This document shows positions 24,558 to 55,454 of a stretch of DNA of 64,000 nucleotides, in pieces. Location: positions 620,001 through 684,000 of the forward strand of contig WFMF01000048.1 in assembly GCA_011033025.1 (NCBI GenBank). Reading direction: 5' to 3'. How positions within the stretch are numbered: position 1 is the stretch's first letter; every line of letters starts with the position of its first letter. Made by a program: the position numbers and the translations under genes. The notes under the pieces are model-generated. The model was given only the letters and a program-made list of their open reading frames with translations. It was not told where the DNA came from and made no database searches. Source of the stretch: Beroe forskalii. Taxonomy: Eukaryota > Ctenophora > Nuda > Beroida > Beroidae.

Positions 24558-24708
24558 CGCTCATACTTTATGGTATGAAATAATATACTCGCGTTGCTCG
24601 TATATTATTCCATAATTAATTCACTCACTTACGTTCGTGAATTAATCACATATAAAAGCCTTGGACCTGCGGTCCGCGGCTTTTATATAATGCCATAAAG
24701 TATGAGCG
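24558..24708. repeat. Cloverleaf palindrome A: outer stem plus three hairpins
   Basis: Outer stem 24558-24576/24690-24708 pairs at 18 of 19 positions (CGCTCATACTTTATGG...). Inside it are three hairpins: 24579-24588/24600-24609 (10 bp), 24615-24624/24637-24646 (10 bp) and 24651-24660/24678-24687 (10 bp). All inner stems are perfect and differ in sequence. It lacks tRNA-type promoter boxes. Confidence 0.85.
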
Positions 24709-24779
24709 TTCCGGTATTAAAGCTTATATTATATCAGTGATATTTATTTTCTGATATTTTTTACCCAAAATTGCAGTAG

Positions 24780-25450
24780 GACATAAATCGAAAGTGTACC
24801 AAGAATACTGCCGAAAGTAAGGTGTTTTGGTACAACAATTTTGCGAAAACTACTAGTCAGATTTTAAAGAAACTTTTCAGTTAAGTCAAGCTTGACCCAA
24901 AGAATATAGAAACGTCAAAAAATTGGTAGGTCTATGTGCTAACTTTCGAGATATAATCCAACACATGGAAATGTTATTTTAGCGATTTTTACGGTATTTT
25001 GGTACATCGATTACTCGAAAACTGGTCGTCACATTTTTATGAGAAATTCCAATTAGGTCGAATATGGCCCAACTAACATAAAAACGTCAAAAAATTGGGT
25101 GGTTTATGAGCTAACTTCCGAGCTATAACAAAACAAAAGAAAAATGGTATTTCCTTGTGTTCGGGGATATCTCGAAATTTAGCATATAGACCCCTCTATT
25201 TTTGACAGTTTTATGTTCTTCTAGTCATGCTCGACCTAACTGGAAAGTTTTATCAAAATGTGACGACCAGCTTTCAAGCAATCGCTGCACCAAAATACTG
25301 AGAAAATCGCTAAAATTACATTTTCCTGTGTTTGAATATAGCTCGTAAGTTAGCATATAGACCCCCAATTTTTGACGGTTTTATGTTCTTTGGGTCATGC
25401 TCGAGCTAACTGGAAAGTTTCATCAAAATGTGACGACTAATTTTCGGGTT
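24780..25450. repeat. Long inverted repeat of ~165-bp subunits
   Basis: The left half has units containing AAAACGTCAAAAAATTGG, GCTAACTT(T/C)CGAG and CGAAAACT. The right half has the complements (CCAATTTTTGACGGTTTTATG, CTCGTAAGTTAGC, AGTTAGGTCGAGCATGAC-like). The centre is near 25140. The two halves form a hairpin of about 300 bp per arm, with internal tandem duplication. Confidence 0.75.
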
Positions 25451-25497
25451 ACATACACTTGTACCAAATCCCATAATTTGGTACACTTGGTACACTT

Positions 25498-27245
25498 ACA
25501 CCCTTGTTCCATATGCATATTTTTAGTCGAATTTTTACTCGAATATCCGCGAGAGGAAATTCGAGTAAAAATTCGAGTCGAATTTCTGGGATATTCGGGC
25601 AAATATCCGCGCAAAATATCTGTCAACGTGTTTACAGATTTTCTCTGCTGTACTCGAATATTTGCGGTAATTGATACCTTGATTAGATCAGGCACCAATG
25701 CTAATTAGTCGGATATTTGGGTGAGATATTTGCTCTTGGTTCCATATGCATATTTTCTGTGAGATTTTCTCATGACGACCTTAATGAGATAATTAATATA
25801 TCTACACACAACCTATTACACGGCTGTGTTCTGCGTACAGTGTGTACCTACACACTCTTTGAATTAGAAACACACACGGACTTGCGTCGTTCGAAGAAGT
25901 GGATATTGTATAAATTTCTGCTTCTCTCTCAAAATTCATATAAATACTGACAATTGTACTCCAGTACTCAATACTTCAATAGTATTACCCTCTCAATAAT
26001 TTACGATGACAAAACTAATTGTAAAACTTAAGTTTAAATGATACGACTGGAACAGTTGGTATCGCTATTAAAAAGCTATCAGCTATCTTAACTTAAATCA
26101 AATCTTGTATAATGAATTAATCAAATCATGAGATTATCGTAGTGCGTCATCTCATGACCAAGACTTGAGCATACATTATGAAAGTATGAAAGTATAGTAC
26201 GGGGGAGCCCTGATAGTACAGAGGAGCCCAGATTTTACCGGGGAGCCCAAGTTGGTACGGGGGAGCCCGAGTTGGTACGGGGGAGCCCAAGTTGGGATGG
26301 GGGAGCCCAAGTTGGGATGGGGGAGCCCTGATAGTACGGGGGAGCCCAGATAGCATGGGGGAGCCCTGATACTACGGGGGAGCCCAAGTTGACATGGGGA
26401 GCACAAAAATGGGGGGAGCCCACGTTAGTTCGGGGGAGTCCAGATAGTACGGGGGAGCCCAGATAGTACGGGGGAGACCAGATAGTACGGGGAGCCCAAA
26501 TAGTACCGGGGAAACCAGATAGTATGGGGGAACCCAGATAGTACGGGGGAGACCAGATAGTACGAGGGAGACCAGATAGTACGGGGAGCCCAGATAGTAC
26601 GGGGGAGACCAGATTGTATGGGGGAGACCAGATAGTATGGGGAACCCAGATAGACGGTTTGTCCCGGTCATGTTTAAGTTTATGGCATCGTTCATTACAT
26701 CGACCAATTCATTAACAAAACAGTCTAATTGAGTGACAATTGAGCTAAGGAATATCTGATTAGATTGAAATTATACTATTATAGCTATAAATGCTATCAA
26801 AACACGTTGGTATCAATTTGTAATGTTCACGATACAAAATAAGGAATGCTGGTACTCCTTGCCTATACGTCATCACAAGGACCCCAAGAAAAATAATAAT
26901 TTCAATCGCATTCATTCCCTCTTCGCACTGATGTTTCCAGTTTCGGATCAGAAGTTGAACGCCATCAACCATATTGCGTGTATGATGCAAGTGTGTACAT
27001 ATAAGTCATTATACTATTACTCTATTACCCTATTACAATACATTGAGGTGATTATGATGTGCTCGCCCATCGATATCATTCTGCAGCCGTGTCGTCTTTC
27101 AAAATTGAATTACGATTCACCCTGCGTGCCAAAAGTTCGACTGGAAAATATGCATATGGAGCCCAGAGCGTCTCTGGGATTTTTTCAAGGTCAATTATTC
27201 GACTCGAATATTCTAGTCGAATATATCAATATGGAACAAGGGTGT
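25498..27245. mobile_element. 1.75-kb element with perfect 17-bp TIRs
   Basis: ACACCCTTGTTCCATAT at 25498-25514 is exactly inverted at 27229-27245. Subterminal DNA on both sides is full of (A/T)TTCGA(G/A)T words (ACTCGAATATT, TCGAGTCGAAT). No transposase is visible and no target duplication is clear. It contains the 19-bp minisatellite at 26190. Confidence 0.75.
26190..26655 (+). repeat. 19-bp G-rich minisatellite
   Basis: About 24 copies of GATAGTACGGGGGAGCCCA with variants (AAGTTGGGATGGGGGAGCCC). Pro/Gly-rich open frames on the minus strand are artefacts. Confidence 0.9.
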
Positions 27246-27589
27246 TAGGTCCCTCTCCATATTTTTACGATTTTATATATCTGATATAATTGATATTCGA
27301 CTGATATAATTCGGTCGAAAAAATATGTGCGAGCCGGCACATATTAAATTTTTTTACTCATATATATGGGTAGTTGTTGCCTAGATCGCCTTCTAATTGA
27401 TACGCTTAATTGAATTTTGACATGTACCCAGGTATACTTGTGTGTTAATGAGGTAATTGTTTACATTCAACACTCTACAACCGAGCTCGGGCTCGTTCAC
27501 CATTGACCTTGATCGAGGTGGATCGAGGAAATAAATGACAAAACTCTTGATTTTGCAATTGGGAAGTATGAAATATGCGTTGTAATAAA

Positions 27590-27990: not shown

Positions 27991-28213
27991 TGGTGTTAGT
28001 GTAAATAGGTGTAAACTTCAGACAACGCTGAAATCTGAGCTAAAGAGTTACAGTGATGCTGTTGCTTCCAGTTTCAGTACCCAGGTTCCAATGGTTTCTC
28101 CCAAGGACATTGCTGGTGTTGTTGAGAACGTTGTGAAAACAGAGGACAGGAGCAAGAACATCATTCTGTTCGGTGTCAAGGAAGATGACGCCCTGATCAA
28201 TATCATTGAGAAC

Positions 28214-30555: not shown

Positions 30556-30618
30556 GTTATTGGTCGGCTAATATCATCGAGTAGCGAAGCCACGAGATGA
30601 TATCAGCCGACCAATAAC
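30556..30618. repeat. Single hairpin, 23-bp arms, CGAAG apex
   Basis: Arms 30556-30578 and 30596-30618 pair at 22 of 23 positions. The apex is GAGTAGCGAAGCCACGAG, with the GCGAAGC core seen in the cloverleaf palindromes. Confidence 0.85.
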
Positions 30619-30767
30619 GCTCTTATTTTCCAACACGCAAGAACTTTTAACCAATAGCAGTTCGTTCATACCTTATCGGACATAATTATCATGGACTCTA
30701 GTTTCAGGGACATAAAACTTCACGGACATTAATATTCACGCTCGATCCAGCCAACTCAAATCAGTCA

Positions 30768-36200: not shown

Positions 36201-38649
36201 CTTCAAAAAGATGGTAAATTATCGGTATTATCGGTCAGATTTTATCGCCGATAACCGATAATTATTTTTCACGTTTTATTGCCGATTATATCGGTTGCAA
36301 ACCCTACTCTCTGCAACTGATATGTAATGTAGTGGCACCAAGGTGCCGGGGCATTCAAAAGTCTTGCCAATCCATGACTGACCGGTTCTCTCTTTTATAA
36401 AATTTGATTTTGGAATATGCGATTTTTCACTCTTGACAAAAACATATCTCAGTTTGCTGCTTCTTTGGACGTTGGCCGTGTATACTTTACCCTTCATAAG
36501 TTCATATAGGCTGCACTGCTGTAGTAGGCCTTGTCATTTAGAGTGTGCTGTGTGCACTTGGGTCTATGTGAACTTGAAGCGGAATAAAGATAAGACCAAC
36601 TTTACGTGCACTGAATAGAATTAGGTATTATGCTCGTAATATAGTATGGATAATACACTCATATTGCTCAATCTGATTGGTTTATGCACCAATCATCAGT
36701 TGACTGAATACTGATCTGTCTGATGGGTTAATGTTTCAATGCTTGGACCCCAGATCGATATCATAATTAATTGGTCGTCCCCAAAAATTTCAAAGGATGT
36801 CCTAATTGAATTAACTGCCATTAATTAGCGAATTTTTTGGAATTTACGAGAGTACAAGATGCATCATATAAATAAAGTAATCGCGTCAAAACAGCAACTG
36901 CAACATTAGCATCTGGTACCAATTATATAAAATTACAAATTATCCTAAGATTCAGTTAATCTGGCGATTTATGAATAAAAACCAGGATTTTTGAAACAAT
37001 TTGAACGGAACATTCTTTAGAACAGAACATGCTTGGATGGTCCCATGTAATAGATATCTTGAGAAAAAAGAAAATATGAAGCATAATATCCATAATTTAG
37101 CTAAATTATGTCGTCGATCGATGATATTCAGATTAGGATCTACTTTATTGAAGTACTCAAGTACTCAGCGACGTAAAATCAATGTGATTGAAATCGAAAA
37201 TTTATTAACATCCAATTAGTTAGCAGTGCGAAAAATTCAGTTTTGATATAGCAATGGCTCGGCTTTACAGCTCCCACTTTACAGCTTCTGCCAATTGCAC
37301 GAATTGCGACCTATCATGATAAAATTAGATTACATACTTACATAATACGCCATCTGAATATTATGGTATATGAATATTATCACAATCATTTTAAAGTTTT
37401 TGATCCTCCCTCATAGCCTTTCACATTTAACATATTCATTGCGGTTGAAAAAAATTAAAGTACTACATCGCATTATTATACACAAAGCTTGATATCCGCC
37501 AATATACCCACAAAATAAATCGGCGGTTAAAATGTCGTAATTATCATAGAAAGAGGTGTTGAGATGATTACGTTGAACCTTCACTTTTTCGCAACGAGGT
37601 GAGCAGAGGACAACATCAAATTCGATTAATTAAAGACGTCCTCCGATTCCAAAAATCATTAATATCATAGCTTTACGTATGGAAAGTTGGGAACGGCGCG
37701 ATACCGCGGGCGGGGGTAACGCTAGACTTATCGTCGGGAGTCCCAAGTAGAACACAAGAGAGAAAATTAGAGTACTACATCATATTATATGGCTCCCAAG
37801 CCCTTATTTGCTATCATGTACATAGTAGTATTGAAGGGTTACTAACCTGAACCAGGTTAATAACCCTTTATATTGAGTCCCTGAGACGGGTTATTAGTCC
37901 AGATCGACCGAATAACCCCAACGACATTAATATAAGAGTAAATTTTATCAATTGAACAATCTTAATCTTGGCTGCATAATCACATTCGTCGCAACAGCAA
38001 TTAGAGCTTCTCAGAGGAGTCAAAAATTAGGTGCTCTAAATCAGTCTTAATAACGAAATCCATGATAGCAAACGGCGATTGAAACACATACTGTTCATCC
38101 GGGCTTACAATTTATTTCCGGTATCACGGTTTGACATGACTCTGTACTCGAGAATCGAGATTCGAGATGAATCATGAACCACAATTAGAATGTTAAAACT
38201 TTCTGCCAAACAAATTAGCGGTAGACTCTTATAGCGTCATTATCATGCGTATAAACGTATACGTAGCGAATTCAAAGTACCGACCAAGCTCCCTTATAAT
38301 TATGTGATAGCCCAGGCTAATTCTGATGGAATTTTAAGAATTACCATGATGTTCAGGTGAAGAGGAAAAGGGTATCGCTTCATTAAGTTATCGATTCAAC
38401 ACATGAAGATGAACGAATTATCTAAACATCTAACTATAATCCGGTGTAATTCATTTTCATTCGGCCTGTAAATTCTGTGCTGTATATTAATTGAGTATTC
38501 GATACTTTAAAAACTAAATGTAATCAGCCCTGTGAATAAGATTACCAATGGCTCTTGCTTCCGGAAGTCTGCAGCTCCTATCGAAAGACCATTATTTTCC
38601 ATGTTTTAACTAGGTACGTTTTTAATGAGTGGTTTCGCCATATAATATC
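36201..38649. other. No gene recognised
   Basis: AT-rich DNA. TTATCGGT words near 36216-36295 resemble an eroded TIR end. A small AACCTGAACCAGGTT palindrome lies near 37846. Short open frames carry no motif. Confidence 0.4.
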
Positions 38650-38820
38650 ACTATTAACCTCAGTAGAGATAAGTAACATCTAGTTTTGAACTCGGCTTCG
38701 CCTCGTACAAAACACATCATTATTGAACTCGGCTTCGCCTCGTACAATAATGCATATATATGTCGCTCGCTGGCGCTCGCAACATATATCATGTTACTTA
38801 CCTCTACTTCGGTTAATAGT
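38650..38820. repeat. Cloverleaf palindrome B: outer stem plus three hairpins
   Basis: Outer stem 38650-38679/38791-38820 pairs at 27 of 30 positions. Three inner hairpins follow: 38683-38688/38708-38713, 38718-38725/38745-38752 and 38756-38763/38782-38789. The first two share the core GAACTCGGCTTCGCCTCGTA, but their distal stems differ and still pair (GTTTTG/CAAAAC against CATTATTG/CAATAATG). The core contains GGCGAAGCC on the minus strand. Confidence 0.88.
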
Positions 38821-39308
38821 TCTATATTATGTAGCATATTATACCACGATCACTGCATCAACCTCTAAAAATAATGCCATGTTGTGAGATATGGAAGGGG
38901 GGAAATAGGATGACATGTACCTACCTCTCTACCTATCAAGCATGGTGTACTATTTTCCAAAGAGCGAAAGTGAGTTTTTTTAGAACTTTTTCAATAAATA
39001 CTCAGTAATACCTATGACATAAAATTCTGTGAGATTTTGTCGTCCCCATTTAGACCTTCGTTCCCAATGATATCGATCAGGGGCTTGGACTGTGATTTAA
39101 TTACGTAATTTGCACAGCGCAAAAATTATATGGGCATGGAACAGGTTGAGCTGAAAAATATATTTTTCAGAAAAAATATGGCCATATTATTTCAGTGAAT
39201 TATTTGGCCATGGAACAAGAGGGTAATGTGTATCAATTGAAGTGCTTGTTGTTATTACGTAATTAAGAATTTAAATTAAAGATATCGATTCTATAGTGTA
39301 ATTGTCCT
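38821..39308. other. No gene seen
   Basis: AT-rich DNA. Near 39140-39225 a GGCATGGAACA / TGGCCATGGAACAAGAGGG pair resembles the ends of the 25498 element. Confidence 0.35.
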
Positions 39309-42300
39309 TTCAGAAAGGTACCCATAATAGGGTGGCGTAACTGGTGGCGTAACTGATGGTTCAGAAAGGTACCCATAATAGGGTGGTGTAACTGGTCGTT
39401 CAGAAAGGTACCCATAATAGGGTGGTGTAACTGGTCGCTCAGAAAGGTACCCATAATAGTGTGGTGTAACTGGTCGTTCAGAAAGGTACCCATAATAAGG
39501 TGGTATAACTGGTGGTTCGGAAAGGTACCCATAATAGGGTGGCGTAACTGGTCGTTCAGAAAGGTACCCATAATAGGGTGGTATAACTGGTGGTTCAGAA
39601 AGGTACCCATAATTGGTTGGTGTAACTGGTGGTTCAGGAAGGTACCCATAATAGGGTGGTGTAACTGGTGGTTCACGAAGGTACCCATAATAGGGTGGTG
39701 TAACTGGTCGTTCAGAAAGGTACCCATAAAAGGGTGGTGTAACTGGTGGTTCAGAAAGGTACCCATAATAAGGTGGTGTAACTGGTGGCCCAGACTCCTA
39801 AAAGGTACCCATGATAGGGTGGTGTAACTGTTGGTTCAGAAAGTTACCCATAATTGGTTGGTGTGACTGGTGGTTCAGGAAGGTACCCATAATTGGTTGG
39901 CACAACTGGTGGCGTAACTGGTGGTTCAGAAAGGTACCCATAATAGGGTGGTGTAACTGGTCGTTCAGAAAGGTACCCATAAAAGGGTGGTGTAACTGGT
40001 GGTTCAGAAAGGTACCCATAATAGGGTGGTGTAACTGGTGGTTCAGAAAGGTACCCATAATAGGGTGGTGTAACTGGTGGTTCAGAAAGGTACCCATAAT
40101 TGGTTGGTGTAACTGGTGGTTCAGAAAGGTACCCATAATCTCATAATTGGTTGGCGCAACTGGTGGTGAAACTGGTCGTTCAGAAAGGTACCCATAATAG
40201 GGTGGTGTAACTGGTCGTTCAGAAAGGTACCCATAATAGGGCACGGTGTAACTGGCCGTTCAGAAAGGTACCCATAATAGTGTGGTGTAACTGGTGGTTC
40301 GGAAAGGTACCCATAATAGGGTGGTGTAACTGGTCGTTCAGAAAGGTACCCATAATAGGTCGGTGTAACTGGTCGTTCAGAAAGGTACCCATAATAGGGT
40401 GGCGTAACTGTTGGCGTAACTGATGGTTCAGAAAGGTACCCATAATTGGGTGGTGTAACTGGTCGTTCAGAAAGGTACCCATAATAGGGTGGTGTATCTG
40501 GTCGTTCAGAAAGGTACCCATAATAGGGTGGTGTAACTGGTGGTTCAGAAAGGTACCCATAATAGGGTGGTGTAACTGGTCGTTCAGAAAGGTACCCATA
40601 ATAGGGTGGCGTAACTGGTGGCGTAACTGATGGTTCAGAAAGGTACCCATAATAGGGTGGTGTAACTTGTCGTTCAGAAAGGTACCCATAATAGGGTGGT
40701 GTAACTGGTGGATCAGAAAGGTACCCATAATAGGGTGGTGTAACTGGTGGTTCAGAATGGTACCCATAATAGGGTGGTGTAACTGGTGGTTCAGAAAGGT
40801 ACCCATAATAGTGTGGTGTAACTGGTCGTTCAGAAAGGTACCCATAATAGGGTGGTATAACTGGTGGTTCGGAAAGGTACCCATAATAGGGTGGCGTAAC
40901 TGGTCGTTCAGAGAGGTACCCATAATAGGGTGGTATAACTGGTGGTTCAGAATGGTCCCCATAATAGGGTGGTGTAACTGGTGGTTCTAAAAGGTACCCA
41001 TGATAGGGTGGTGTAACTGGTGGTTCAGAAAGGTACCCATAATTGGTTGGTGTAACTGGTGGTTCAGGAAGGTACCCATAATTGGTTGGCACAACTGGTG
41101 GCGTAACTGGTGGTTCAGAAAGGTACCCATAATAGGGTGGTGTAACTGGTGGTTCAGAAAGGTACCCATAATAGGGTGGTGTAACTGGTGGTTCAGAAAG
41201 GTACCCATAATAGGGTGGTGTAACTGGTGGTTCAGAAAGGTACCCATAATTGGTTGGTGTAACTGGTGGTTCAGAAAGGTACCCATAATCTCATAATTGG
41301 TTCAGAAAGGTGGTGGTGTAACTGGTCGTTCAGAAAGGTACCCATAATAGGGTGGTGTAACTGGTGGTTCAGAAAGGTACCCATAATTGGTTGGCGCAAT
41401 TGGTGGTGTAACTGGTGGTTCAGAAAGGTACCCATAATAGGGTGGTGTAACTGGTCGTTGAGAAAGGTACCCATAATAGGATGGTGTAACTGGTCGTTCA
41501 GAAAGGTACCCATAATAGGGTGGTATAACTGGTCGTTCAGAAAGGTACCCATAATAGGGTGGTGTAACTGGTCGTTCAGAAAGGTACCCATAATAGGGTG
41601 GTGTAACTGGTCGTTCAGAAAGGTACCCATAATAGGGTGGTGTAACTGGTCGTTCAGAAAGGTACCCATAATAGGGTGGTGTAACTGGTGGTTCAGAAAG
41701 GTACCCATAATAGGGTGGTGTAACTGGTCGTTCAGAAAGGTACCCATAATAGGGTGGTGTAACTGGTCGTTCAGAAAGGTACCCATAATAGGGTGGTATA
41801 ACTGGTGGTTCGGAAAGGTACCCATAATAGGGTGGTGTAACTGGTCGTTCAGAAAGGTACCCATAATAGGTCGGTGTAACTGGTCGTTCAGAAAGGTACC
41901 CATAATAGGGTGGCGTAACTGTTGGCGTAACTGATGGTTCAGAAAGGTACCCATAATAGGGTGGTGTAACTGATCGTTCAGAAAGGTACCCATAATAGGG
42001 TGGTGTATCTGGTCGTTCAGAAAGGTACCCATAATAGGGTGGTGTAACTGGTGGTTCAGAAAGGTACCCATAATAGGTCGGTGTAACTGGTCGTTCAGAA
42101 AGGTACCCATAATAGGGTGGCGTAACTGGTGGCGTAACTGATGGTTCAGAAAGGTACCCATAATAGGGTGGTGTAACTGGTCGTTCAGAAAGGTACCCAT
42201 AATAGGGTGGTGTAACTGGTCGTTCAGAAAGGTACCCATAATAGGGTGGTGTAACTGGTGGTTCAGAAAGGTACCCATAATAGGGTGGTGTAACTGGTGG

Positions 42301-45300
42301 TTCAGAATGGTGCCCATAATAGGGTGGTGTAACTGGTGGTTCAGAAAGGTACCCATAATAGGGTGGTGTAACTGGTCGTTCAGAAAGGTACCCATAATAG
42401 TGTGGTGTAACTGGTCGTTCAGAAAGGTACCCATAATAGGGTGGTGGTCAAAGTGTAACTGGTGGTTCAGAAAGAGTACCCATGTTTTGGCGTAACACAC
42501 CATATAACTGGTGGTTCAATGTTACCCATAATAGGGTGGTGTAACTGGTCGTTCAGAATTAAACCACCCATAATAGGATGGATGTAACTGGTGGTTCAGT
42601 GTGGTACCCATAAAAGGGTGGTGTTACTGGTGGTTCAGAAAGGTACCAGATAGTGCATTAGAATCACTGGTGGTTCAGAACGATATTTAATTTTATGTTA
42701 TAAATTATGGTTTTGAGTCTTGTAAAGTCAGAAAGGATTGAATAATTAGGATGAGATAATTGGTCGTTCAGAAGGTACCCATAATAGGGTGGTGTAACTG
42801 GTGGTTCAGAAATTCCTTAATTTGGCAATAAATTTCGTAACACAATAAATTGACTTAAATTGGTTAGAAAGGTACCCATAAAGGGTGGTTAACTGGTCGT
42901 TCAGAAAAAACCCATAATAGGTCATATATATAGTATTTGTTCTTAAAGTACCCAAAGGCGATGCCCAAAACCCTTAACAGGTGGTTCAGAAAGGATACCC
43001 CCATAAATTCCCCTACCATTTAACTGGTCGCTTGAAAGGTTATTTTGGGTGAAACCACTTGGTAGTTCAGACTCTGTACCCATATGGGGTGGTGTAACAG
43101 TATCAAGAACCATTCCCAACCCCTGGTGCTGTAACTGGTCGAAATTTCTTTAACATATTTAGGGTGGTAAAACTGCTCGTTCAGAAAGGTACCTGAAACA
43201 ATGTCAAAAGCTGATCAGATAATTAACTTAGTTTTGACAACTCATTATTGCAAAAACATTCTGAGTAAAAACCTTGTTACAGGTGGTGCAGAAATTTACC
43301 CAAAAAATCATTAGTAACATTCGGTTCAGAAAGGACCAGTGATGTTAAGTAACATTGTTTGGTTCAGAATGTTTTATAATTAAAAACCCATCGTGGTATC
43401 ATTAGATATCATAATCGTGTTAATCATGCTGTATATTGTTGAAACCCCATGTTACAGGTGGTGTAACTGGTGGTTCAAACATATTACTCAAGAATGGGAA
43501 GAATAGAAACTGGTGGTTAAGAAAAAAATCATCAACGTCACCTGGATGGAAACTTGGTGGTTCACCTGTAACAGAAGGTTACCCATAAAAGGGTGGTTAA
43601 ATTGACTAGGTAGTTCATGAAAATCAACTGGTAGTTAGCTCTTAGATATTTGAACACTGGTGGTTCAGAAAATTACCCATAGCGATGTTTTTGGTGTAAC
43701 TGGTGGTTCAGAAAGGTAACCATAATAACATCAGAATGGACATAATAGTACCCATAATAGGGGGTGTAACTGTGGTTTGAAAGATACCCATAATGTTATA
43801 ACTGGTCGTTGAGGTACCCAAATTTAACCAATTAAGAAAGCAAAATCTTAAATGGTTGTTCAGAACTTTAAACAAATGATTTAATAGGGTGGTTTAACTG
43901 GTCGTTCAGAAAATTACCCATAAAAGGTGGCCTTCTGGTCGTTCAGAGTGGTGTGATAATTTTGGCTTTGTTCACATTTGAAAGGGGCCCATAAAAGGGC
44001 ATTGTAACTGGTGGTTCAGAAAGGTCAACCCATAATTGGGTTGGTGTAACTGGTCGTTCATGCAATTACATGTTTTGGGTGGGAAAACTGCTATAAATAA
44101 CTGGTGGTTCAAAAGGTACCCATAATAGGGTGGTGAAACTGGTGGTTTTGAAAGGTACCCTAATAGGGTGGTGTAACTGGTGGTTCAGAAAGGAACAAAG
44201 TTTTCAATTGTGGTTAACTGGTGGTTAAGAAAAACCAACAATAGGGCAAATGGTAACCCTGGTAGTTCAATTAGTTAATGTTGGGTGCGGCAAAATATCA
44301 TATTTTTAGCATCTGATTTTCAACTGGTGGTTCAGAAAGGTACCCATAACAGGGTGGATAACTGGTCGTTCAGAAAGGTACCCATATCATACTGGTCGTT
44401 CAGAAAGGTACCCATAATAGGGTGTGTAACTGGTGGTTCAGAAAGGTAGATAATGGGTGGTGAACTGGTGACCTGTAAAAGGTACCCATAATATTGGTGT
44501 AACTGGTCGTTCAGAAAGGTACCCATAATACAGGGTTTGGTGTAACTGGTGGTTCAGAAAGGTACCCATACCCAGGGTGGTGTAACTGGTGGTTCGAAAG
44601 GTACCCATAATAGGGTGGTGTAACTGGTCGTTTAGAAAACCCATAATAAACTGGTCAGGTTGGAGGTCGTTCGAAAGGTACCATAATAGGGTGGTATAAC
44701 TGGTGGTTCGGAAAGGTACCCATAATAGGGTGGCGTAACTGGTCGTTCAGAAAGGTACCCATAATAGGGTGGTATAACTGGTGGTTCAGAATGGTCCCCA
44801 TAATAGGGTGGTGTAACTGGTGGCCCAGACTCCTAAAAGGTACCCATGATAGGGTGGTGTAACTGGTGGTTCAGAAAGGTACCCATAACTGGTTGGTGTA
44901 ACTGGTGGTTCAGGAAGGTACCCATAATTGGTTGGCACAACTGGTGGCGTAACTGGTGGTTCAGAAAGGTACCCATAATAGGGTGGTGTAACTGGTGGTT
45001 CAGAAAGGTACCCATAATAAGGTGGTGTAACTGGTGGTTCAGAAAGGTACCCATAATAGGGTGGTGTAACTGGTGGTTCAGAAAGGTACCCATAATTGGT
45101 TGGTGTAACTGGTGGTTCAGAAAGGTACCCATAATCTCATAATTGGTTGGCGCAACTGGTGGTGTAACTGGTCGTTCAGAAAGGTACCCATAATAGGGTG
45201 GTGTAACTGGTGGTTCAGAAAGGTACCCATAATTGGTTGGCGCAATTGGTGGTGTAACTGGTGGTTCAGAAAGGTACCCATAATAGGGTGGTGTAACTGG

Positions 45301-46231
45301 TCGTTGAGAAAGGTACCCATAATAGGATGGTGTAACTGGTCGTTCAGAAAGGTACCCATAATAGGGTGGTATAACTGGTCGTTCAGAAAGGTACCCTTAA
45401 TAGGGTGGTGTAACTGGTCGTTCAGAAAGGTACCCATAATAGGGTGGTGTATCTGGTCGTTCAGAAAAGTACCCATAATAGGGTGGTGTAACTGGTCGTT
45501 CAGAAAGGTACCCATAATAGCATAATAGGGTGGTATAACTGGTGGTTCAGAAAGGTACCCATAATAGGGTGGCGTAACTGGTCGTTCAGAAAGGTACCCA
45601 TAATAGTGTGGTATAACTGGTGGTTCAGAAAGGTACCCATAATAGGGTGGTGTAACTGGTGGCCCAGACTCCTAAACGGTACCCATGATAGGGTGGTGTA
45701 ACTGGTGGTTCAGAAAGGTACCCATAATTGGTTGGTGTAACTGGTGGTTCAGAAAGGTACCCATAATTGGTTGGCACAACTGGTGGCGTAACTGGTGGTT
45801 CAGAAAGTCAGAAAGGTACCCATAATAGGGTGGTGTAACTGGTGGTTCAGAAAGGTACCCATAATACTATAATAGGGTGGTGTAACTGGTGGTTCAGAAA
45901 GGTACCCATAATTGGTTGGTGTAACTGGTGGTTCAGAAAGGTACCCATAATCTCATAATTGGTTGGCGCAACTGGTGGTTTAACTGGTCGTTCAGAAAGG
46001 TACCCATAATAGGGTGGTGTAACTGGTGGTTCAGAAAGGTACCAATAATAGGGTGGTGTAACTGGTCGTTCAGAAAGGTACCCATAATAGGGTGGTGTAA
46101 CTGGTCGTTCAGAAAGGTACCCATAATAGGGTGGTGTAACTGGTCGTTCAGAAAGGTACCCATAATAGGGTGGCGTACCTGATGGTTCAGAAAGGTACCC
46201 ATCATAGGGTGGTGTAACTGGTGTTCAGAAA
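39309..46231 (+). repeat. 39-bp satellite array 2
   Basis: Same unit and orientation as array 1. Units alternate GGTGGTTCAG and GGTCGTTCAG variants, with insertions such as GGCGTAACTGGTGGCGTAACTG and AATTGGTTGGCGCAACTGG. Blocks of several hundred bp are reiterated (40990-41296, 44836-45142 and about 45690-45950 share the same order of variants), indicating higher-order units. Long frames on both strands are artefacts. The right edge at about 46231 abuts a truncated LINE. Confidence 0.95.
42480..44690 (+). repeat. Decayed core of satellite array 2
   Basis: Here 39-bp units survive only as scattered fragments (AACTGGTGGTTCAGAA, GGTACCCATAA) separated by irregular AT-rich insertions and deletions. 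Regular units lie on both sides. Either old sequence trapped in a homogenised array or consensus error. Confidence 0.7.
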
Positions 46232-46838
46232 AGCTCTCATTATAGATATCCCTAGTCAACACAAAGTCTAGAGTGCCTCCACAGATATGAGTAGGTTCCT
46301 GTATATGTTGTTGAAGATTATACTCTGACATTATTGCCATAAATTTCATGGTATCTGGGTCATTTTCCTTCTCATAATGAATGTTGAAATCTCCAGCAAT
46401 CACCAATTTCCCATTTGCCTCACACATGTATGACAAAAGATCATTGAATTCCTCAAAAAATTCCTTGGTGTTTCCATGTGCACCAGTTCCAGAGCGATAT
46501 ATGCAGATTATTCTGAGATTTTCATTGGTCTGGGATTTTGCAAAGCATTCTATGTGCTCAAATGACTTGTAAACTTTGCAGTATTTCTTAGATATTTTTA
46601 TGTTCTTCTTGAAAACAACAGCGACACCACCCCCACGGCCAGGTCTTGAAACATGGTGAATTAGGTAACCAAACTCTTTCATTTCTGCTATTTTGGAAGA
46701 ATCACCTTTTCTAAGCCATGTTTCTGTTAGGAGACAAAAATCTATATCAAGATCTTTCAGGTATTCCATAACAGCCATGGTTTTATTGCACAATGACCTA
46801 GGATTAAAAACACAAACATTTAGTATATGACATGATTT
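46232..46838 (-). pseudogene. LINE 2 ORF2: endonuclease fragment truncated by the satellite
   Basis: The minus-strand frame begins within the end of ORF1 (overlap in another frame) with HILNVCVFNPRSLCNK, then LLTETWL (catalytic Glu), GGGVAVVFK, IICIYRSGTGAHG, VIAGDFNIHYE and GGTLDFVLTRD. These are successive motifs of the LINE apurinic-like endonuclease. The frame then runs directly into the 39-bp satellite near 46231. The SDH motif and the whole reverse transcriptase are missing. A recombination or array expansion boundary is likely. Confidence 0.88.
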
Positions 46839-46840
46839 CC

Positions 46841-48583
46841 CTACAAGTTTTTTGAGTAGTCTGTTCTGTCCATTATCTTTTTTTGTTCATGAATTATAGT
46901 GGGGCATTTATCAGAACCAGAGTGATGAGACCCACAAGATGCTTTAGTTTCTGGATCTTTGGACTGAGCACAGTTCCTACATTTGTGGGCTGCTACATTC
47001 TTTTTGTGGGGACAGGTACTTGTAGTATGACTTGCACTGCAATACATACAGATTGCATGATCTTCATTGCAATCTGTTGATATATGTCCAATCTTCTGGC
47101 ACTTATAACATTGTTTTATATGAAATCTATCAACAACTGGACAAGTTGTATTGCCAATGAAAATTCTTTTCCTAGTGAAAATGTGGTCTCGGATAGCTGG
47201 TGAAACTTTTATTCCTAATGTAGAATACTCCTTCCCAACATTAACATATACAATATCAAACGTCTTGCCATCATCATGAAGTTTTGAAACTCGTTCATTC
47301 TTTTCCATTATTTTTGATTTAAGATGGGACTTGAGCTTTTCCCTATATTCAACAGGGGTGAGATTATCTTTTTCAGACAGGATGTAAGACACCAACTGAT
47401 TTGGAACATTAGATATTGTGATTTTAGGGAAAATTTTCTTGGCATCATTGATGTCGTAATTATGAGCATGCAATGTTTCACATCTTTGTAGTATTCCTTT
47501 ACCAGTATCAGCTGTGCTTTGGTTAGGAAACTTAAGGATGATTTTTTTGTTTAATGGATTTTTCTTTACATAGCTGAATGGGATTGTTCTGAATTGTTCA
47601 TCTATGTTTTTTGAGACCTCTGAGAGTTCAAAGTCCCTTGAGTTGGTTGAAAGAACAACAACATGATCTTTGGGCATGGTTTTACTGTCAGAACATGTTG
47701 CACCTGTGATAGAACTAATGTCTGATTCTACAATGCTTGAGGATCCCAATTCAGGTAATGAAGTGGATGGAGAGAAGGAAGAAATTGCACTGTCATGAGA
47801 ACTTCTTCTCTGCAGCCTTGGACCCTTAGCAACAGTTGAAGCATAAGTTGGCAATAAAGGGGATTGATCACTGCTTTCAGGTTGGAAGTTTGAAGCCTTC
47901 ATAAAACTGAGCTTTGAATCCATCATAAATTCAACCTCACCCAAGATTTTGGTTTTCATTTCAGTTAACATGTTAGCAATACTTCCTATGACAGAAATTT
48001 CCTCTGCTGAGCTTCCTATCTCAGAAGTCATATTATCATTTCTTTTGACCAGAGCTTCATTCACTGCAGTTTGACATTCATTATCACAGAAATGCAATTC
48101 ATTGGTCTGAGTATAAGATTCAGCATAACTTTTATCATTGTTTCTGAATTTTTTCTTTTCAAGAAGAACAGAGCATGAGTTGCACACAAACATGAAGTGT
48201 CCCCATCTTTCACTGCTTGCCCCATATTTTGCAATGATTGGTCTTATCTGATCAAGTGCAGTCTTAGTTGAGATAGAGGTACTCATTATATTACCTTTTT
48301 TATCCCTACAAAGACCATGAAATAAATCTTCGCAAAGAGAACAAGCAATTGATTCCTCCCTTATGTTAGAGGAACTACATTTACAACAAATACCTTTGTC
48401 ATTAAAGCGTGGGACTGCAGGATTAGCTGGGGACTTCTTCTTCTTTTTCTTGGACTTCCCCTTTACAGTCTTGTCCTCTATAGCACTGCTTTGAACTGCC
48501 ATGCCATTAACATTGGCCTTGTCATCCTGTAATGGATCTGAGGACTCCGCCTTTTCCTCTCCTAACTCACTTTCAGGTGACAT
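46841..48583 (-). CDS. LINE 2 ORF1: PHD-like finger, RRM-like middle, zinc knuckles
   Basis: 580 residues from ATG 48583 (MSPESELGEE) to a TAG near 46841. Residues 41-50 are a Lys-rich run. Residues 66-92 form a PHD-like Cys/His cluster (GICCKCSSSN...ACSLCEDLFHGLC), with a further CNSC near 155. The Ser-rich middle precedes an RRM-like stretch (HVVVLSTNSRDFEL...KKIILKFPN, about 305-365). The C-terminus has CYKCQKIGHISTDC (CX2CX4HX4C), CMYCSASHTTSTC and further Cys/His pairs. This is a nucleic-acid-binding ORF1 (gag-like) chaperone, expected to coat LINE RNA. The full reading frame suggests recent origin, though ORF2 is lost. Lineage is uncertain, but a 5' block is shared with the first LINE. 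Confidence 0.87.
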   Translation of the reverse strand: MSPESELGEEKAESSDPLQDDKANVNGMAVQSSAIEDKTVKGKSKKKKKKSPANPAVPRFNDKGICCKCSSSNIREESIACSLCEDLFHGLCRDKKGNIMSTSISTKTALDQIRPIIAKYGASSERWGHFMFVCNSCSVLLEKKKFRNNDKSYAESYTQTNELHFCDNECQTAVNEALVKRNDNMTSEIGSSAEEISVIGSIANMLTEMKTKILGEVEFMMDSKLSFMKASNFQPESSDQSPLLPTYASTVAKGPRLQRRSSHDSAISSFSPSTSLPELGSSSIVESDISSITGATCSDSKTMPKDHVVVLSTNSRDFELSEVSKNIDEQFRTIPFSYVKKNPLNKKIILKFPNQSTADTGKGILQRCETLHAHNYDINDAKKIFPKITISNVPNQLVSYILSEKDNLTPVEYREKLKSHLKSKIMEKNERVSKLHDDGKTFDIVYVNVGKEYSTLGIKVSPAIRDHIFTRKRIFIGNTTCPVVDRFHIKQCYKCQKIGHISTDCNEDHAICMYCSASHTTSTCPHKKNVAAHKCRNCAQSKDPETKASCGSHHSGSDKCPTIIHEQKKIMDRTDYSKNL

Positions 48584-50697
48584 TGCACACTTGATTGCTC
48601 AAGTAAACACAGCAATGCCAAACTTCAAGCAGGTTATTTGATTTCAATTTGGGGTCCTCAAATTTGATTGTATAAAGTAGTGTTGTAAAGTTTAAAACTT
48701 TGCCTTCGGCGAGGCAAGACATTGATCAACCCCATGTCAGAGGAAATAGATGGGCAACGTCCGTCGAACAAAAGACATGGAAACTGCAGCTCAAACTGTC
48801 ATCATTTGACTAGATAATGAAAATGATATATTCAAATCATAAAGAAAACTTTCTTCAAAACATCAATCTGCAAGACTAATATCTTAATGACAATTTCGTT
48901 AGGGTGTGTGAATTATGTCTGTGTGGACACTGGAGTTAAATTCGAGCTTGTCAGGAAATTATCTAGAGAAATGAAGGCGTAAGGGAGAAAAAAGGTGCTG
49001 TTACTATGGAGATTGGATATTTGTGCATTATATGCAACAATGAGTAGTTGGTTAAGTGTGGTTTCTGTTGCATCCTTAATGCAGTAGAGTTGATTTTTTT
49101 AAATGTTGTTGTAGAGACATGGTGGCAGTTAATGCTGTGTTAGCTGTTTTGAAATGGCCACATTATTTTTCTTATCATTTTTTGAGATGAAGCTAATTTC
49201 TGCAAACAAACACAACCAAATGTACTTACTTAGCATAAACAAGAACTGCACTTGCCAGCACATTTCTTGTGCCTGTTGTTCCCGTATGCAGGTGCTTATT
49301 CCTGTTCCGGGTTCCCTGGGGCTGGTATTAAAACATGTCATCATTTGATCGTTGACCATTGTTTGTATCGCTTACTCATACTGACCTGATGAGTTGATGA
49401 TAAAACACTCTATCTATCAAGTGTCACATAACAATACTAACATCATTGAATCAATTTTATAAATTATATTCCATTTGTTAGTATAAGCTGAAAACAATAA
49501 TTGATCTTGTTTTCTTTAACCTTGGCGAGTGCTTTAATTTCATGAAACAATAAAGGTTGTATAATGTATGTGATCACAAGTCACATGTGCATTTTACTGC
49601 ACATGCAAATTAATTCAACTCCTGCTATGTTCTGTTTGCGCATGTACACATTCATTCTTGGTTGTTTCCTTTTGAGTTTCGTGCCCACATCAAGCATTGT
49701 GCATTATCAAGCATTTCCATTGATAAAAATAATTATATCATATGAAATCACATTATTTTTTGTTCTTAAAAGTGTCTGCATTTTGATTTGATGTTGCTCA
49801 GATACCACAGTCAGAGGCCAGAGCTCACTTTAAAAGAAAGACTTGATCAAGGATATTTGCTCATGGCGACTATTGATATTCAACAGTTCAACTAAATGCA
49901 ATGTTCTTCCTGAGCATCGAAATTTGTGATCAACTATGCCAACTTGAAGATAAAGAGAAGGATTATTAGCCAAGATTGAAGATTCAGATATTGTAAATTC
50001 ATTAGATAGGTACAGGGACAAAAAAATTGATTGATTAAACCAACCATTGCCTTTTTACTAAGACTAAGACCAGGACAAATTTTCATCTGTTACTTTCCTC
50101 AGCAAAATTGCTAAGGTCAATCAAAGGAACTCAAATTGCTCATTGTCAATTGTCTCCTGCTTAAAGAAAAATGATAATTTGATTGAAACCTAATCAAAAT
50201 TTGATGGAGAGTTCCAAGAAAATCGATAGACATTCATGCACCACTTATCATTGAAAAGATTGATGAAATTGAAGGATGATAAGGTTTTTGAAAAATAATC
50301 AATATCCAAGTTTCAACATTAGGAATTAGGATGAACAGAGCATTGAACTTGAATAACTGTAAGCTAGCTGCAGTGCACACTGTACAGGATGCCACTACAC
50401 CAAGCTATATTGGCACGAGTGATATCATAAAGGAACAGTTGGATGCTTGAAAATGATCACAAAAGTGACATACATACATACATACATACCACACACATAC
50501 AACCAAAATTGGTTGCATGCAGCACCACCACCTATTTCAAATTTAACAGTACATGTAATGGTAGTATACACACAACCCCCTCGAACCATGATCTCTGCTA
50601 TCCTTTTTCTCAATGCCTTTTTGTAAAACAAAAACACAATTGGGAACAGGAATAAATTAGTATGGATTTAAACTTCAGGCAGAAAAAGTCAAAATTT
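48584..50697. other. LINE 2 5' flank and AT-rich intergenic DNA
   Basis: 48841-48877 matches 3521-3557 at 35 of 37 positions, in the same relation to ORF1. A TGCCTTCGGCGAGGCA hairpin lies near 48702. A short TACA microsatellite is near 50472. No other gene is recognised. Confidence 0.45.
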
Positions 50698-51621: not shown

Positions 51622-51659
51622 TGATAAATAAATCTGGGATCAATTTAAAAACTGATAAT

Positions 51660-52375
51660 TTTTCCAGTGCTTCTTTTTCTGTCCCAAATGTCCCAGTTGT
51701 CCCATTTGTCTCATATAGGGGGGGGGGGGTGTCACTGTCCCAATTGTCCCAAACTCAAGAAAAAGTGGATTGGGACAGGGACAATTGAGACAATTTGGAC
51801 AAATGGGACATTTGGGACAAATGGGACAGTGAAAATGCAATAAATGGGACTCAAAACAGTGAATGCGGACTGGGACAATTGGGACATTTGCGACAAATGG
51901 GACAATTGGGACAAATGGGACAGAGAAAATGGACCAAATGGTACTCAAAAACGTGAATGCGGACTGTGACAAATGGGACATTTGGGACATTTTGGACAAT
52001 TGGGACAAAAGTGACAGAGACAACTGGGGCTCAAATGATTTTGTTTTGCAAAGAAACACAACCAAAATACGTACTTAGTATAGTAGTAGGAAAGTAGGAA
52101 TATTACTTTCATTTCAATGATAGAAAAACTTGGATCAATGTAAAAAATGATAAATGACTGATTTTTTCAACTTTTTGTTTGTCCCAAATGTCCCAGTTGT
52201 CCCAATTGTCCCAAAAACCAGTCCCAAACTCAAAAAAAGTAAATTGGGACAGGGACAATTGGGACAATTGGGACAGTGACACTCCCCCCCCGCCCCGGCC
52301 CCCCCCCCATATAACAGTTCTAAACTCAAAAAAAGTTAATTGGCACTAGGACAATTGGGACAGTGACATTCCCCC
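51660..52375. repeat. GGGACAATT minisatellite with inverted blocks
   Basis: Runs of TTGGGACAA/TTGTCCCAA words change strand several times (51672-51712 minus, 51775-52030 plus, 52180-52225 minus, 52245-52370 plus). The larger block starting AAAAA(C/T)TGATAA...GTCCCAAATGTCCCAGTTGTCCC occurs twice (about 51645, 52140). Confidence 0.75.
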
Positions 52376-52502
52376 ATTGTGGTTACAAAGAAATATTAAT
52401 TTTATAGCAATGACATTTATATATTATAGCAATGACAATATAAGTTTGATTTCATATTTTATTCATTATCAGCACAATAATTTGCAGAAGGAAAGCTATG
52501 GT

Positions 52503-55401
52503 ATGAAAGCCTCATTTCACATGATCAGACTACAATTGTTGATTTTTCAAGTGATATTGATTAAAGCCCAAAGATACTCTTTTTCTGAAAACAATGAAAT
52601 TCAAAACTTGATATATGACAAATTAGGAAAAAGGGTATTTGTTGGTGGAACCAATAAGATCTACAGACTCTCAGTAAGTGTATCTTATTTCATTGTTTTG
52701 ATTAATTCATCAATTAATGATGATTTAATTCAAGCTTACTATTATCCCATACCTATTATATGTGCAGAAGGATTGTTCTATTAACTTATTATTAAGGGAT
52801 TGAGGAAGACATGCAATTTTGCCAATCCTGTTTACACTTTCGATAGTTCAATTGATCACTTATGTATGATCCATATTCACATACACACTTTTTATTTTCA
52901 AACTTTTCAGGATGAATTACAAAAATTGTCAGACAAAAAAACTGGACCTGAAATGGACAGTGCTAATTGCTATGAATATGATCATAACGATTGTATAAGA
53001 GGGAATAATATCGATGATGTTTTCACAGATAACGTCAACAAAGTTTGTATTTATGTTTTTCTGAATGAATCAATCATGGCAATTGATAACTTCTTTGCTA
53101 ACTACCTACAATCAATTTCAATCAATCTATGTTTATTTCCTAATTTCAGATATTATTGATCAATAAGGGATTACTCATATTTTGTGGTTCTGTGTATGGT
53201 GGGAGATGCACTGCTACTGATGCCTCTAACCTAGATCAAGTATGTCATTGTACTTTCAACATAATATAAGTAGACACTCATCCCTTATGGATTAGATTTA
53301 TGGTGATGATTTGATGAAAATTATTTTGTGTTTGCACAAATATGATTCGAGAATGCTATGCCTATTGCCTATATATACTTATATACTTATAGCTTTATAG
53401 GTATTTAAAGGACGAGTAAAGCGAAGAAATTTTGTTCAAATATCGTTCTGAGACGTTGTACACAGAATCTAGGGCAATTCTCTAATCTAATCGTTAAAAA
53501 ACGAAGATTCTACCACACCCACAAGACGAGATATTCCCTTCCATATATTTATCATACATAACATGCATTTGATGTCGGAATTTGGTCCCCTTCCTATCCA
53601 CGCAACGTTGCATGTTATGTATTTTGCATGTTATTAATCTTGCGTTTTGGTATAATTATCCATCCCATATGAGTGGTTAAACACTGTTTTAATTCGTCTA
53701 GTGGAATTCTCAATTCTATAAGTCAATAATAAAAACCAACAAATCCATCTAATTAGTAATCGAGGCGTGAAAAAATCAATCAAGACCGTCAAAAACAGTG
53801 GAATATATACTGTGTTTACATAGTGAACTCAGGGTGTAATTTGATACTGGGGACCATAATGCATCATATTTTGCGCCTAGAATTGCTCTTTGATTTAGCT
53901 ATGGCGTGCGGTAGGAAGTGAATAGAAACATCGGACTTTGACTAAAGTGCTTTTAATTATGATACCTATCATAATATGAAATATTTTGTAAACCTTAAAT
54001 TTCGCTTTACTCGTCCTTTAATATATTCTCTTGGTAGCTAAGTAGGTTTAGTATTGGTTCTTCAAGTTGATTTTAATTAGAATCAATGAGCCTATTAGAA
54101 TTCTTGTATCAAAATTCAGGTAAAAGAATATGAAACAAGTTCGAGAACCAGATTTGACATAAAATTTTGGACAGCAAGCAGTAACTCTAAAACACTTGCT
54201 ATAGCAGGTTCTGGTCTTCAAAACAATGAAGGCCTGTTTGTTGCAATTGAAAATGGCTACCAACCAATGTATGGTACAATGCCATTTATAGCATCTTACT
54301 ACATTAATGAAGGAGCATCAGGTACAATGTTTGAGAGAGTAAAAAATGGCTTCTGGGTATACTTCAAGGATAATGTTAAGTTCTACTACATGTTCAAATC
54401 AGCAAGTTCTTATTTCCATACTGTTGGAAAGTTCAAGAATGAATATCCATTCATTTCAAGGACATGTATGTCAGACATGGGGAGGAAAGACCCTTATTCT
54501 ACAATGAAATACAAGTCATATGTTCGGATAAAGTTCAAGTAAGTAACGAATATAATACCACTCCAGTCTCCAGTGCAGATAACCACAATGCAATATATCA
54601 GGGCATATCGCACTGGTCATGGTATTATACGCTAATCTAACTCCCCAGAAGTGATATTGTTGCACTAATATGCACTCGGCTGACGCCTCGTGCACATCAG
54701 TCTACTAATCAACACTCGGCTTCGCCTTGTGTGATTAGTACACTTATTGGCACTCGGCTTCGCCTCGTGCAATAAGTGCAACAATACCACTATGCGTCGT
54801 TAGATTAGCGTATATAATTATATACCGAATACAATCATAAATTCAGCAAAAAACAATTTACATGCTGTGCTACTCTCTATCATGCTGCTTTCTAAAATTG
54901 CTGTTATTATCTTGTGCAACATGATCTAATGTTTCAGATGTGAGGGTAAAGTAAACGGCAATTACATAGAATTCAAGACACTTCTAGGTGTCACTACTGG
55001 GAAGTTGTCTGTGAACCTATCTGGAGATCTATTTGGTAACTCATTTGGACCGAGCCCTCCAGGGGATGATGTTCTCATTGCAGTGTTCTATGATGAACCA
55101 ACAGATACCAGTGCTGTGTGTCCGTATCTCATTAACACAGTTAACAATAAGATTGATAATGTCACCACCGAAGAGGGGCGGTGTTCATACCTAGAAATGC
55201 ACGAAAATCGCTATAATCTAGAAGGTGTGATAGATTCAGAGCCTCTCGGAACGTTTAAAAGTAACAATGTGACATCGTTGCTTTTACTTAACGTTAAGGA
55301 CGATAATATTCTTGTTACGGGTACCAAGACTGGTGAGATCAGGAAAATTCTAATGCGAAAGAACGGACTTAGGCATACTGTCAACAAGATTGAGCAAACT
55401 G
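52503..55401 (+). CDS. Plexin-type sema-domain protein, first five exons
   Basis: Proposed exons: 52503-52673 (phase 0), 52911-53042, 53150-53239, 54120-54538, 54938-55401 (ends phase 1). They give about 425 residues in one frame. Exon 1 encodes a signal peptide (LQLLIFQVILIKAQ), then LIYDKLGKRVFVGGTNKIYRLS, the first sema blade. Exon 2 has TGPEMDSANCYEYDHNDC and TDNVNK; exon 3 ILLINKGLLIFCGSVYGGRC. Both match plexin rather than semaphorin order. Exon 4 ends with FISRTCMSDMGR and the SYVRIKFKC strand. Exon 5 reaches VTSLLLLNVKDDNILVTGTKTGEI near the sema end. Acceptors have TTTCAG tracts. The exon 2 donor (GTTTGT) is weak. The PSI/IPT and GAP regions are not found downstream, so the gene continues past the window or is truncated. 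Plexins are surface receptors for semaphorin guidance cues. Confidence 0.85.
53405..54021. mobile_element. MITE in intron 3 of the plexin-like gene, TTAA-flanked
   Basis: AGGACGAGTAAAGCGAA at 53409 is inverted at 54017. TTAA lies on both sides (53405-53408, 54018-54021). A TTAA duplication suits piggyBac or Kolobok-type mobilisation (inference). No coding region is seen. Confidence 0.85.
54626..54814. repeat. Cloverleaf palindrome C: outer stem plus three hairpins, in an intron
   Basis: Outer stem 54626-54641/54799-54814 is 16 bp perfect. A second stem 54655-54666/54775-54786 is 12 bp perfect. Inside are three hairpins: 54671-54694 (TGCAC...GTGCA), 54703-54740 (TACTAATCA...TGATTAGTA) and about 54742-54775 (CTTATT...AATAAG). 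All have CACTCGGC(TTC/TGAC)GCC apices. Lies in intron 4 of the plexin-like gene. Confidence 0.88.
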
Positions 55402-55454
55402 GTGAGTGCTGTGTTCCCAGCTCAGTATTCAATAGAATATGTGGGAAATAATGA

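Follow-up and report, generated by a model that had tools for sequence, protein, structure and literature searches.

What kind of DNA keeps its folded shape while its sequence changes? The question is raised by three loci, here called E1, E2 and E3, in a 64,000-nucleotide stretch of genomic DNA (contig WFMF01000048.1; this whole stretch is referred to as the window). At each of them an outer inverted repeat encloses three hairpins in a row, so that the strand can be drawn as a cloverleaf. The three cloverleafs are real, well above chance, and mobile, and what unites the families to which they belong is a fold and not a sequence. This fold places three capped hairpins next to an internal complementary region (ICR), or splint, that is complementary to both ends of the element. 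With a probability of about 0.62, each forms the 3' terminus in one of three related families of short, non-autonomous elements that move via a single-stranded or circular DNA intermediate.

Folding and a shared hairpin tip

The arms of the outer repeat were found by independent detection at the E1 locus (24557-24583 with 24683-24709, 27 nt, 89%) and at the E2 locus (38639-38679 with 38791-38831, 41 nt, 83%), and the DNA fold of E3 has an outer stem of 16 consecutive pairs. Against 200 dinucleotide shuffles per locus, the DNA-fold z-scores are -11.46 (24540-24728), -9.29 (38640-38830), and -11.42 (54626-54814), with no shuffle folding as well as the natural sequence. An earlier note, made from the letters of the window, had described an outer stem and three hairpins at each locus and had taken structure, not sequence, to be the constant; both statements hold. 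The scan that it proposed, for an outer stem around exactly three simple hairpins, works less well when applied strictly, recovering one of the three loci (E2) and giving one hit in 40 shuffled windows. Three hairpins are present in all six families examined (E1, E1', E2, E3, E4, and E5), and one-hairpin repeats with the same tip exist too.

The stems have no sequence in common between loci, as the note had said, but most of the hairpin tips do. On otherwise unrelated stems the tip is a tandem TC/TC mismatch (GA/GA on the other strand), mostly capped by a GNA or GNNA loop. It is found in seven of the nine cloverleaf hairpins of the window, the exceptions being the third of E1 (TT/GC) and the second of E3 (TC/TT). 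In a 270-kb pool enriched for these element families, 384 hairpins have a 2x2 mismatch close to the loop, and 177 of them carry this tip (163 TC/TC and 14 GA/GA); two shuffled sets gave 4 (3 and 1) of 323 hairpins. There are 21 distinct 7-bp stems on the GA strand, and 15 of these, by reading, have GNA or GNNA loops. Across the genome the exact string ACTCGGCTTCGCCTCGT has 812 occurrences; its reversed control has none. Elsewhere in the window, a single 30-bp hairpin at 30556-30618 has the same style of tip (CGAG...CGAG) without a cloverleaf.

The sequence GCGAAGC is a classic, extraordinarily stable DNA mini-hairpin, and tandem G.A pairs in a PyGAPu context are stable in DNA, as are tips of GA/GA with GNA loops. 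The predicted energies of the strand with GA/GA tips are -54.2, -43.1, and -59.8 kcal/mol at E1, E2, and E3, compared with -48.6, -38.2, and -51.1 kcal/mol for the other strand. This advantage of the GA strand at every one of the three loci argues for single-stranded DNA as the working form. Stable DNA hairpins of this kind appear as a general notion in part of one paper (PMC10527192); titles and abstract openings in the open-licence PMC literature held no matching description of the tip sequence, or of cloverleaf or hairpin transposons.

Sequences within families show how the fold is kept. E1 and its relative E1' can be aligned across the outer stem and the tips, and their hairpin stems change on both sides. 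Double changes affect 7 of the 40 predicted pairs in 12 E1-type sequences, representing few events, mostly between two clades; for example, one U-A pair has become A-U in 6 of the 12. These sequences remained from 28 E1-type copies after leaving out nine without recognised outer arms, five near-identical ones (L003, L004, L007, L093, and L096), and two with rearranged or partly lost hairpins (L083 and L089). The third hairpin is unrelated between the two clades and therefore unpaired in the E1/E1' consensus, even though either clade's version can fold alone. By eye, the same change of stems with retention of structure is seen between E2 and E5. Substitutions per site in E2 are 0.010 in the cloverleaf and 0.023 in the interior (231 pairs from 22 copies), from which no conclusion is drawn because the copies were picked by their cloverleaf.

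Mobile elements that end in a cloverleaf

The host genome that was searched comprises 216 Mb. The E1 cloverleaf has 36 matches in it, some of them partial; first-look candidates number 336 for E2 and 374 for E3, of which the best 40 in each case were scored. Among the best 40 of the 336, at least five are 100% identical to E2 over the whole 191-bp query, including the window's own copy and L009, which shares the flanks of the window copy. Four pairs with shared flanks are duplicate copies of single insertions (L009/L010, L015/L018, L041/L050, and L049/L062). Over the full length, most sampled E2 copies share 90-97% identity with that of the window.

When 30 copies each of E2 and E3 were compared together with their flanks, homology beyond the cloverleaf stopped abruptly on the right and extended to the left, for 1,040 bp in E2 and 260 bp in E3; the cloverleaf is therefore the 3' terminus. 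The earlier suggestion of a stand-alone cloverleaf element thus gives way to one in which, for E2 and E3, it forms the end of a larger repeat, and there is no support for a cloverleaf that by itself serves replication or recombination. No terminal inverted repeats (TIRs) were found at the extreme ends of E2 and E3, where the two ends are unrelated, so the case that the note named as refuting, in which the loci would be disconnected pieces of ordinary TIR elements, does not arise. No open reading frame (ORF) longer than 75 aa overlaps E2. E1, E2, and E3 are families of short, non-coding, apparently mobile elements.

The exact 5' end of E2 occurs at 65 places in the genome and the exact 3' end at 68. 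A 3' end follows within 12 kb downstream of 55 of the 5' ends and is absent from the other 10. The distance is 900-1,100 bp in 40 of the 55 pairs; two are tandem-neighbour artefacts (distance 1), two are shorter, and 11 are longer. The three longest were considered as autonomous E2 elements and rejected, as they contain a nested insertion resembling a long interspersed nuclear element (LINE; L075), tandem repeats (L076), and an uncharacterised insertion (L077).

Two further families were characterised. E4 (L100-L105) has a three-hairpin cloverleaf, the 3' end AAGCGTA-TA, and the 5' end TTAGCCAATTTTGAGG, of which L102 retains only part of the right side. E5 (L109, reverse strand, about 280-1120) has both ends in common with E2 and a different interior; it had been tried as a one-hairpin family, and was rejected as such when the full element proved to end in three hairpins. 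The 5' end pattern shared by E2 and E5 occurs at 190 places, about 125 of which, by subtraction, are not E2.

Insertion is documented by sites with and without the element. Five of six comparisons of E3 with paralogous empty sites differ by two bases, which are TA in the three that involve L067. For example, TTTC-TA-TTAGCGC becomes TTTC-TA-[TAATACC...TTAGCGTA]-TA-TTAGCGC upon filling. For E2, an uninserted tandem unit beside L038 has the empty site acatga-TA-TTACAT. The gained TA may stem from duplication of the target TA, or it may belong to the element, with nothing duplicated. The flanks of E2 and E3 point to a preferred target, 5'-TANNNNN[TA]TWA-3'. After removal of identical 12-base flanks only, T is found at position -8 in 16 of 19 distinct left flanks of E2 and 19 of 20 of E3, and the third base after TA is A in 26 of 29 right flanks of E2 and 26 of 27 of E3; TTA or TAA follows about 5% of TA sites in the window as background. 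The flanking repeat is TA, and grows to TATTA where the target matches. Head-to-tail dimers occur for E2 (at C341, C414, and C691) and for E3 (in L048). In at least three of 60 copies (L024, L031, and L059), the 3' end of the element repeats its final 8-14 nt two or three times, a pattern like that of slippage on a template during copying.

The window's own E1 copy is divided, its 5' end region being separated from the remainder by later insertions. A mariner-like miniature inverted-repeat transposable element (MITE) at 23381-24234, with perfect 27-bp TIRs (TACACTCAGTTTTTTTTATAAGAAACT) and TA flanks, lies inside this copy, and L004 has the corresponding empty site. About 1.5 kb of other sequence (21871-23380), ending near CCGCCCTGGCCAGGGCGG, also lies between the 5' end region and the remainder.

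A putative splint for both ends, and the enzymes that could use it

In these families the 5' terminus of the element recurs in inverted form directly before the cloverleaf, and is followed by the outer arm, which is complementary to the 3' terminus. The inverted 5' end and outer arm together are thus the reverse complement of the element's joined ends. The inverted 5' end matches perfectly over 14 bp in E1, 11 bp in E2, and 10 bp in E3. Of the 36 positions compared, 22 are the outer stem itself, and the separate part is the inverted 5' end. The matches of E1, E2, and E3 (Table 1) exceed the best of 300 shuffles each, and E5 matches at 27/36. The two parts adjoin with gap 0 in eight of eight sequences from six families, at 179-190 nt from the 3' end; four of the eight were assembled, with the 5' end from one copy and the 3' part from another, and L101 was used for E4 in place of L105. 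In E3, the 5' half reaches 8/10 at two tied placements, one of them being the zero-gap placement. The first mismatch inside the E2 helix is again TC/TC. From this model we infer that a single-stranded fold would bring both ends of the element next to each other on a single template.

Table 1. Positions of the elements, cloverleafs, and ICRs in the window (^ marks the joint between the two parts of an ICR; hairpin boundaries were taken from the letters and the folds).
Feature	Positions	Strand	Remarks
E1 cloverleaf	24558..24708	+	outer stem and hairpins 24579-24609, 24615-24646, 24650-24688
E2 cloverleaf	38640..38830	+	hairpins 38683-38713, 38718-38752, 38756-38789
E3 cloverleaf	54626..54814	+	hairpins 54664-54701, 54704-54739, 54742-54777
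E1 ICR GTGGATTTTTTA^TAATCTTTAACACC	24529..24554	+	25/36 vs shuffle best 22 (L004 copy); gap 0
E2 ICR GCCATATAA^TATCACTATTAACC	38637..38659	+	27/36 vs shuffle best 23; gap 0, 179 nt from 3' end
E3 ICR TGGTATTA^TACGCTAATC	54620..54640	+	27/36 vs shuffle best 21; gap 0, 185 nt from 3' end
E1 copy, 5' end region (TATAAAAAATCCACAGG...)	21807..21870	+	94% to first 65 bases, query from L004 E1 copy
E1 copy, remainder to 3' end (...TTAAAGCTTA, then TA)	24231..24726	+	90-95% to L002, L003, L004
E2 element, 1,040 bp	37785..38824	+	TA both sides (37783-37784, 38825-38826)
E3 element, 260 bp	54553..54812	+	TA flanks (54551-54552, 54813-54814)

These features would fit a mechanism in which the strand bearing the GA/GA tips folds and the ICR brings both ends of the element together at one point. 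A nuclease acting in trans would read the fold and not the sequence, cutting and joining at the ends, while the three capped hairpins next to the joint would serve for nucleation and recognition. The product, a circle or a transferred strand, would be inserted at TANNNNN^TATWA; the intact target before insertion would then have been TANNNNNTATWA, without loss of bases. Of the possibilities raised in the earlier note, a structure for single-strand or rolling-circle-like transposition remains the best reading. For the enzyme, a RepHel protein of the Helitron2 type, with an HUH nuclease, is slightly favoured as first candidate, and a Crypton-type tyrosine recombinase is placed second.

Several observations weigh against this account. 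The minimum-energy fold of E3 pairs hairpin 1 with hairpin 3, and the three-hairpin fold is weaker than this optimum by 4.4 kcal/mol on the + strand and 4.2 on the - strand. Outer arms were not recognised in nine of the 28 E1-type copies when up to 3 mismatches per arm were allowed, and decayed copies exist. In the E4 copy L105, which has one extra base, the ICR matches at 22/36 and the joint is shifted by one base. One E3 comparison (L057/L044), with an atypical left end, differs by one base and shows no clean TA; in another (L061) the position of the two bases is ambiguous. All of the empty sites are paralogous, lying within other repeats, and are not allelic. The tandem junctions hold an extra TA, unexpected from direct ICR-templated joining. 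No autonomous copy was found that has an enzyme gene as well as both ends. Furthermore, the sampled loci were chosen by similarity to E1-E3, by the tip, or beside enzyme matches, and the counts are those of a non-random sample.

The question of which enzyme could act on these ends leads to several explanations. In the first, which we consider a serious candidate at slightly less than an even chance, the elements are non-autonomous relatives of Helitron2/Helentron with asymmetric terminal inverted repeats, in which the cloverleaf is an enlarged 3' hairpin and RepHel is supplied in trans. Passages on Helitron2 describe an inverted copy of the 5' end immediately before the 3' hairpin (PMC3627910, PMC5148889, PMC4067079), the arrangement seen here. 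Like Helitron2/Helentron elements (DINE-1, HINE), these families have an asymmetric inverted repeat, short and abundant non-autonomous copies, tandems (found for E2 and E3), and compensatory changes. In the Helitron2 group, part of PMC5148889 reports a target for FoHeli1/2 between TNAT and A, and also joined ends; its figure legend gives TNAT and T. The differences are in the 3' region, where a three-hairpin cloverleaf of 150-190 nt replaces a short hairpin and the inverted copy is 179-190 nt from the end and not about 20-60 bp, as in the passages cited (PMC3627910, PMC5148889, PMC4067079), and in the target, which is TA and not TT or T-runs (T^A being reported for FoHeli1/2 in the passage concerned).

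The genome has 20 matches to Helitron_like_N, and 10 loci beside them were sampled. None of the 10 has an E1-E3-type end on an intact element: L070 and L071 have a simple hairpin in common (46 bp, 91%) past the homologous part and seem to end in it, resembling an ordinary Helitron end; L113 has another simple hairpin; and others do not reach or show an end. No cloverleaf was recognised in the flanks of L110-L113. A diverged E1 cloverleaf is located about 1.7 kb past the helicase frame in L069. Canonical Helitrons (Helitron1) were rejected as partners, as their ends look different: E2 and E3 lack the 5'-TC, the CTRR-3', the single subterminal hairpin, and the A^T insertion. Near one Helitron_like_N match (L072; C802:1490900-1495000, reverse strand 1-200) there is a perfect inverted repeat with 95-nt arms.

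In the second explanation, which is tentative and on balance unlikely, the elements are non-autonomous and of Crypton type, with a DUF3504/Phage_integrase recombinase joining a circle, the joined ends of which are copied by the ICR, to a TA-containing site and the cloverleaf serving as a folded recombination site with a function like that of integron attC. A search of the genome for the recombinase gave seven places. At C493:136962-139511, a 5' part of E1 (139353-139511), a gene for a DUF3504/Phage_integrase recombinase (137404-137796), and an internal 3' part of E1 (136962-137056) are arranged in the same order and strand. An E1-type copy in C110 joins both sides of the gene (45 bp at 100% and 34 bp at 97%), and another in C301 retains 98 bp, at 89%, of its upstream side, with a deletion joint different from that in C110. 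Because of the order in C493 and these interior remnants, E1 is, as judged from sequence, an internal-deletion derivative of a mobile element that bore a recombinase gene.

The C493 copy with the gene is without the first ~50 bp of E1 and without the cloverleaf. Since it thus lacks both true ends, the gene may be either the engine of the E1 lineage or captured cargo, and the link to a recombinase is seen for E1 only. The locus L004, where one of the seven recombinase matches is just upstream of an E1 cloverleaf, was tried as an intact element with recombinase and cloverleaf and rejected: comparison with a second copy (L117) shows separate units, the homology of the gene ending at base 1074. 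At the three other recombinase loci sampled (L114, L115, and L116) no cloverleaf was found within about 2 kb; further recombinase matches lie at C469, C301, and C279. The recombinase fragment has no relative in PDB by sequence.

Like animal elements of the CryptonA type, the families lack TIRs and include internal-deletion derivatives, and the E1 lineage holds a DUF3504-type segment. The 2011 survey (PMC3212892) describes Cryptons as having short direct repeats in place of TIRs, and found no terminal repeats in animal Cryptons. Crypton repeats measure 4-6 bp, at both ends; the flanking repeats of E2 and E3 are TA, or TATTA where the target matches. Neither 'hairpin' nor 'palindrome' occurs in the main text of that paper (PMC3212892). 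An ICR is itself a feature of DIRS recombinase elements: a passage on DIRS1 describes one close to the 3' end that is complementary to the left end as well as the right, as a proposed template for circle formation (PMC3266345). The match to joined ends is the same in the present families. In contrast to DIRS1-like elements, no reverse transcriptase or terminal inverted repeats were seen in E2 and E3 (non-autonomous, 260-1,040 bp), and the spacer between ICR and end is a structured cloverleaf. No multi-hairpin 3' structure is described in the Helitron2 and DIRS passages or in the titles and abstract openings from targeted literature searches. By analogy, the elements are filed as a variant that would work like the inverted repeats of Helitron2 and the ICR of DIRS, and as a member of neither group.

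Integron attC sites and the ends of IS200/IS605 elements are recognised as folded single strands, with structure kept while sequence drifts. An improbable further step would be an animal superfamily with a folded single-strand recombination site as in integrons, made up of three hairpins with unusually stable DNA tips (GA/GA and GNA loops) and a built-in splint that copies the circle joint, and moved by a Crypton-type tyrosine recombinase that reads shape and not sequence. Unlike the present families, attC and IS200/IS605 are bacterial, and the genome gave no match to the Y1 transposase domain (PF01797), a search that was positive in 5 of 14 control genomes.

It is very improbable that these are ordinary MITEs of a DDE family that inserts at TA (Tc1/mariner), with an interior that is palindromic by chance: TA is gained on insertion, as in such a family, but there are no TIRs, the ends of E2 and E3 are unrelated, the 5' end has its inverted partner inside the element, the target consensus is not centred on TA, and the adjoining mariner-like MITE looks quite different. 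Structured RNA genes or RNA-mediated retroposons, suggested by the tRNA-like shape, are the least probable, as no Rfam family reaches its gathering threshold in the window, the flanks of the compared E2 and E3 copies have no poly(A) tail, and the tips are those of stable DNA folds.

For the preferred reading, of termini acting through a single-stranded or circular intermediate, the wider significance is that the definition and joining of ends in TIR-less eukaryotic elements are poorly known. An end would here consist of a conserved fold and an internal splint. Many copies, empty sites, and nested deletion derivatives within one genome make 'shape, not sequence' directly testable.

Neighbouring features of the window

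E3 lies between two open stretches (54099-55451), with a match to the Sema domain only in 54930-55448, and it is probably within an intron for this reason. Sema and THAP domains in reading frames of the window indicate that the genome is probably an animal's. On the minus strand at 1435-3063 there is a 543-aa ORF, probably of a retroelement, with a 2OG-Fe(II) oxygenase domain and a GDSL-like domain, the latter just under the cut-off. LINE-like ORFs for a zinc knuckle protein and an endonuclease are found at 45936-48598, also on the minus strand. Long tandem repeats at 11507-14456 and 39263-46224 are open in several frames (YYGYLSE.PVTPP and MGTFLN.QLHHPI).

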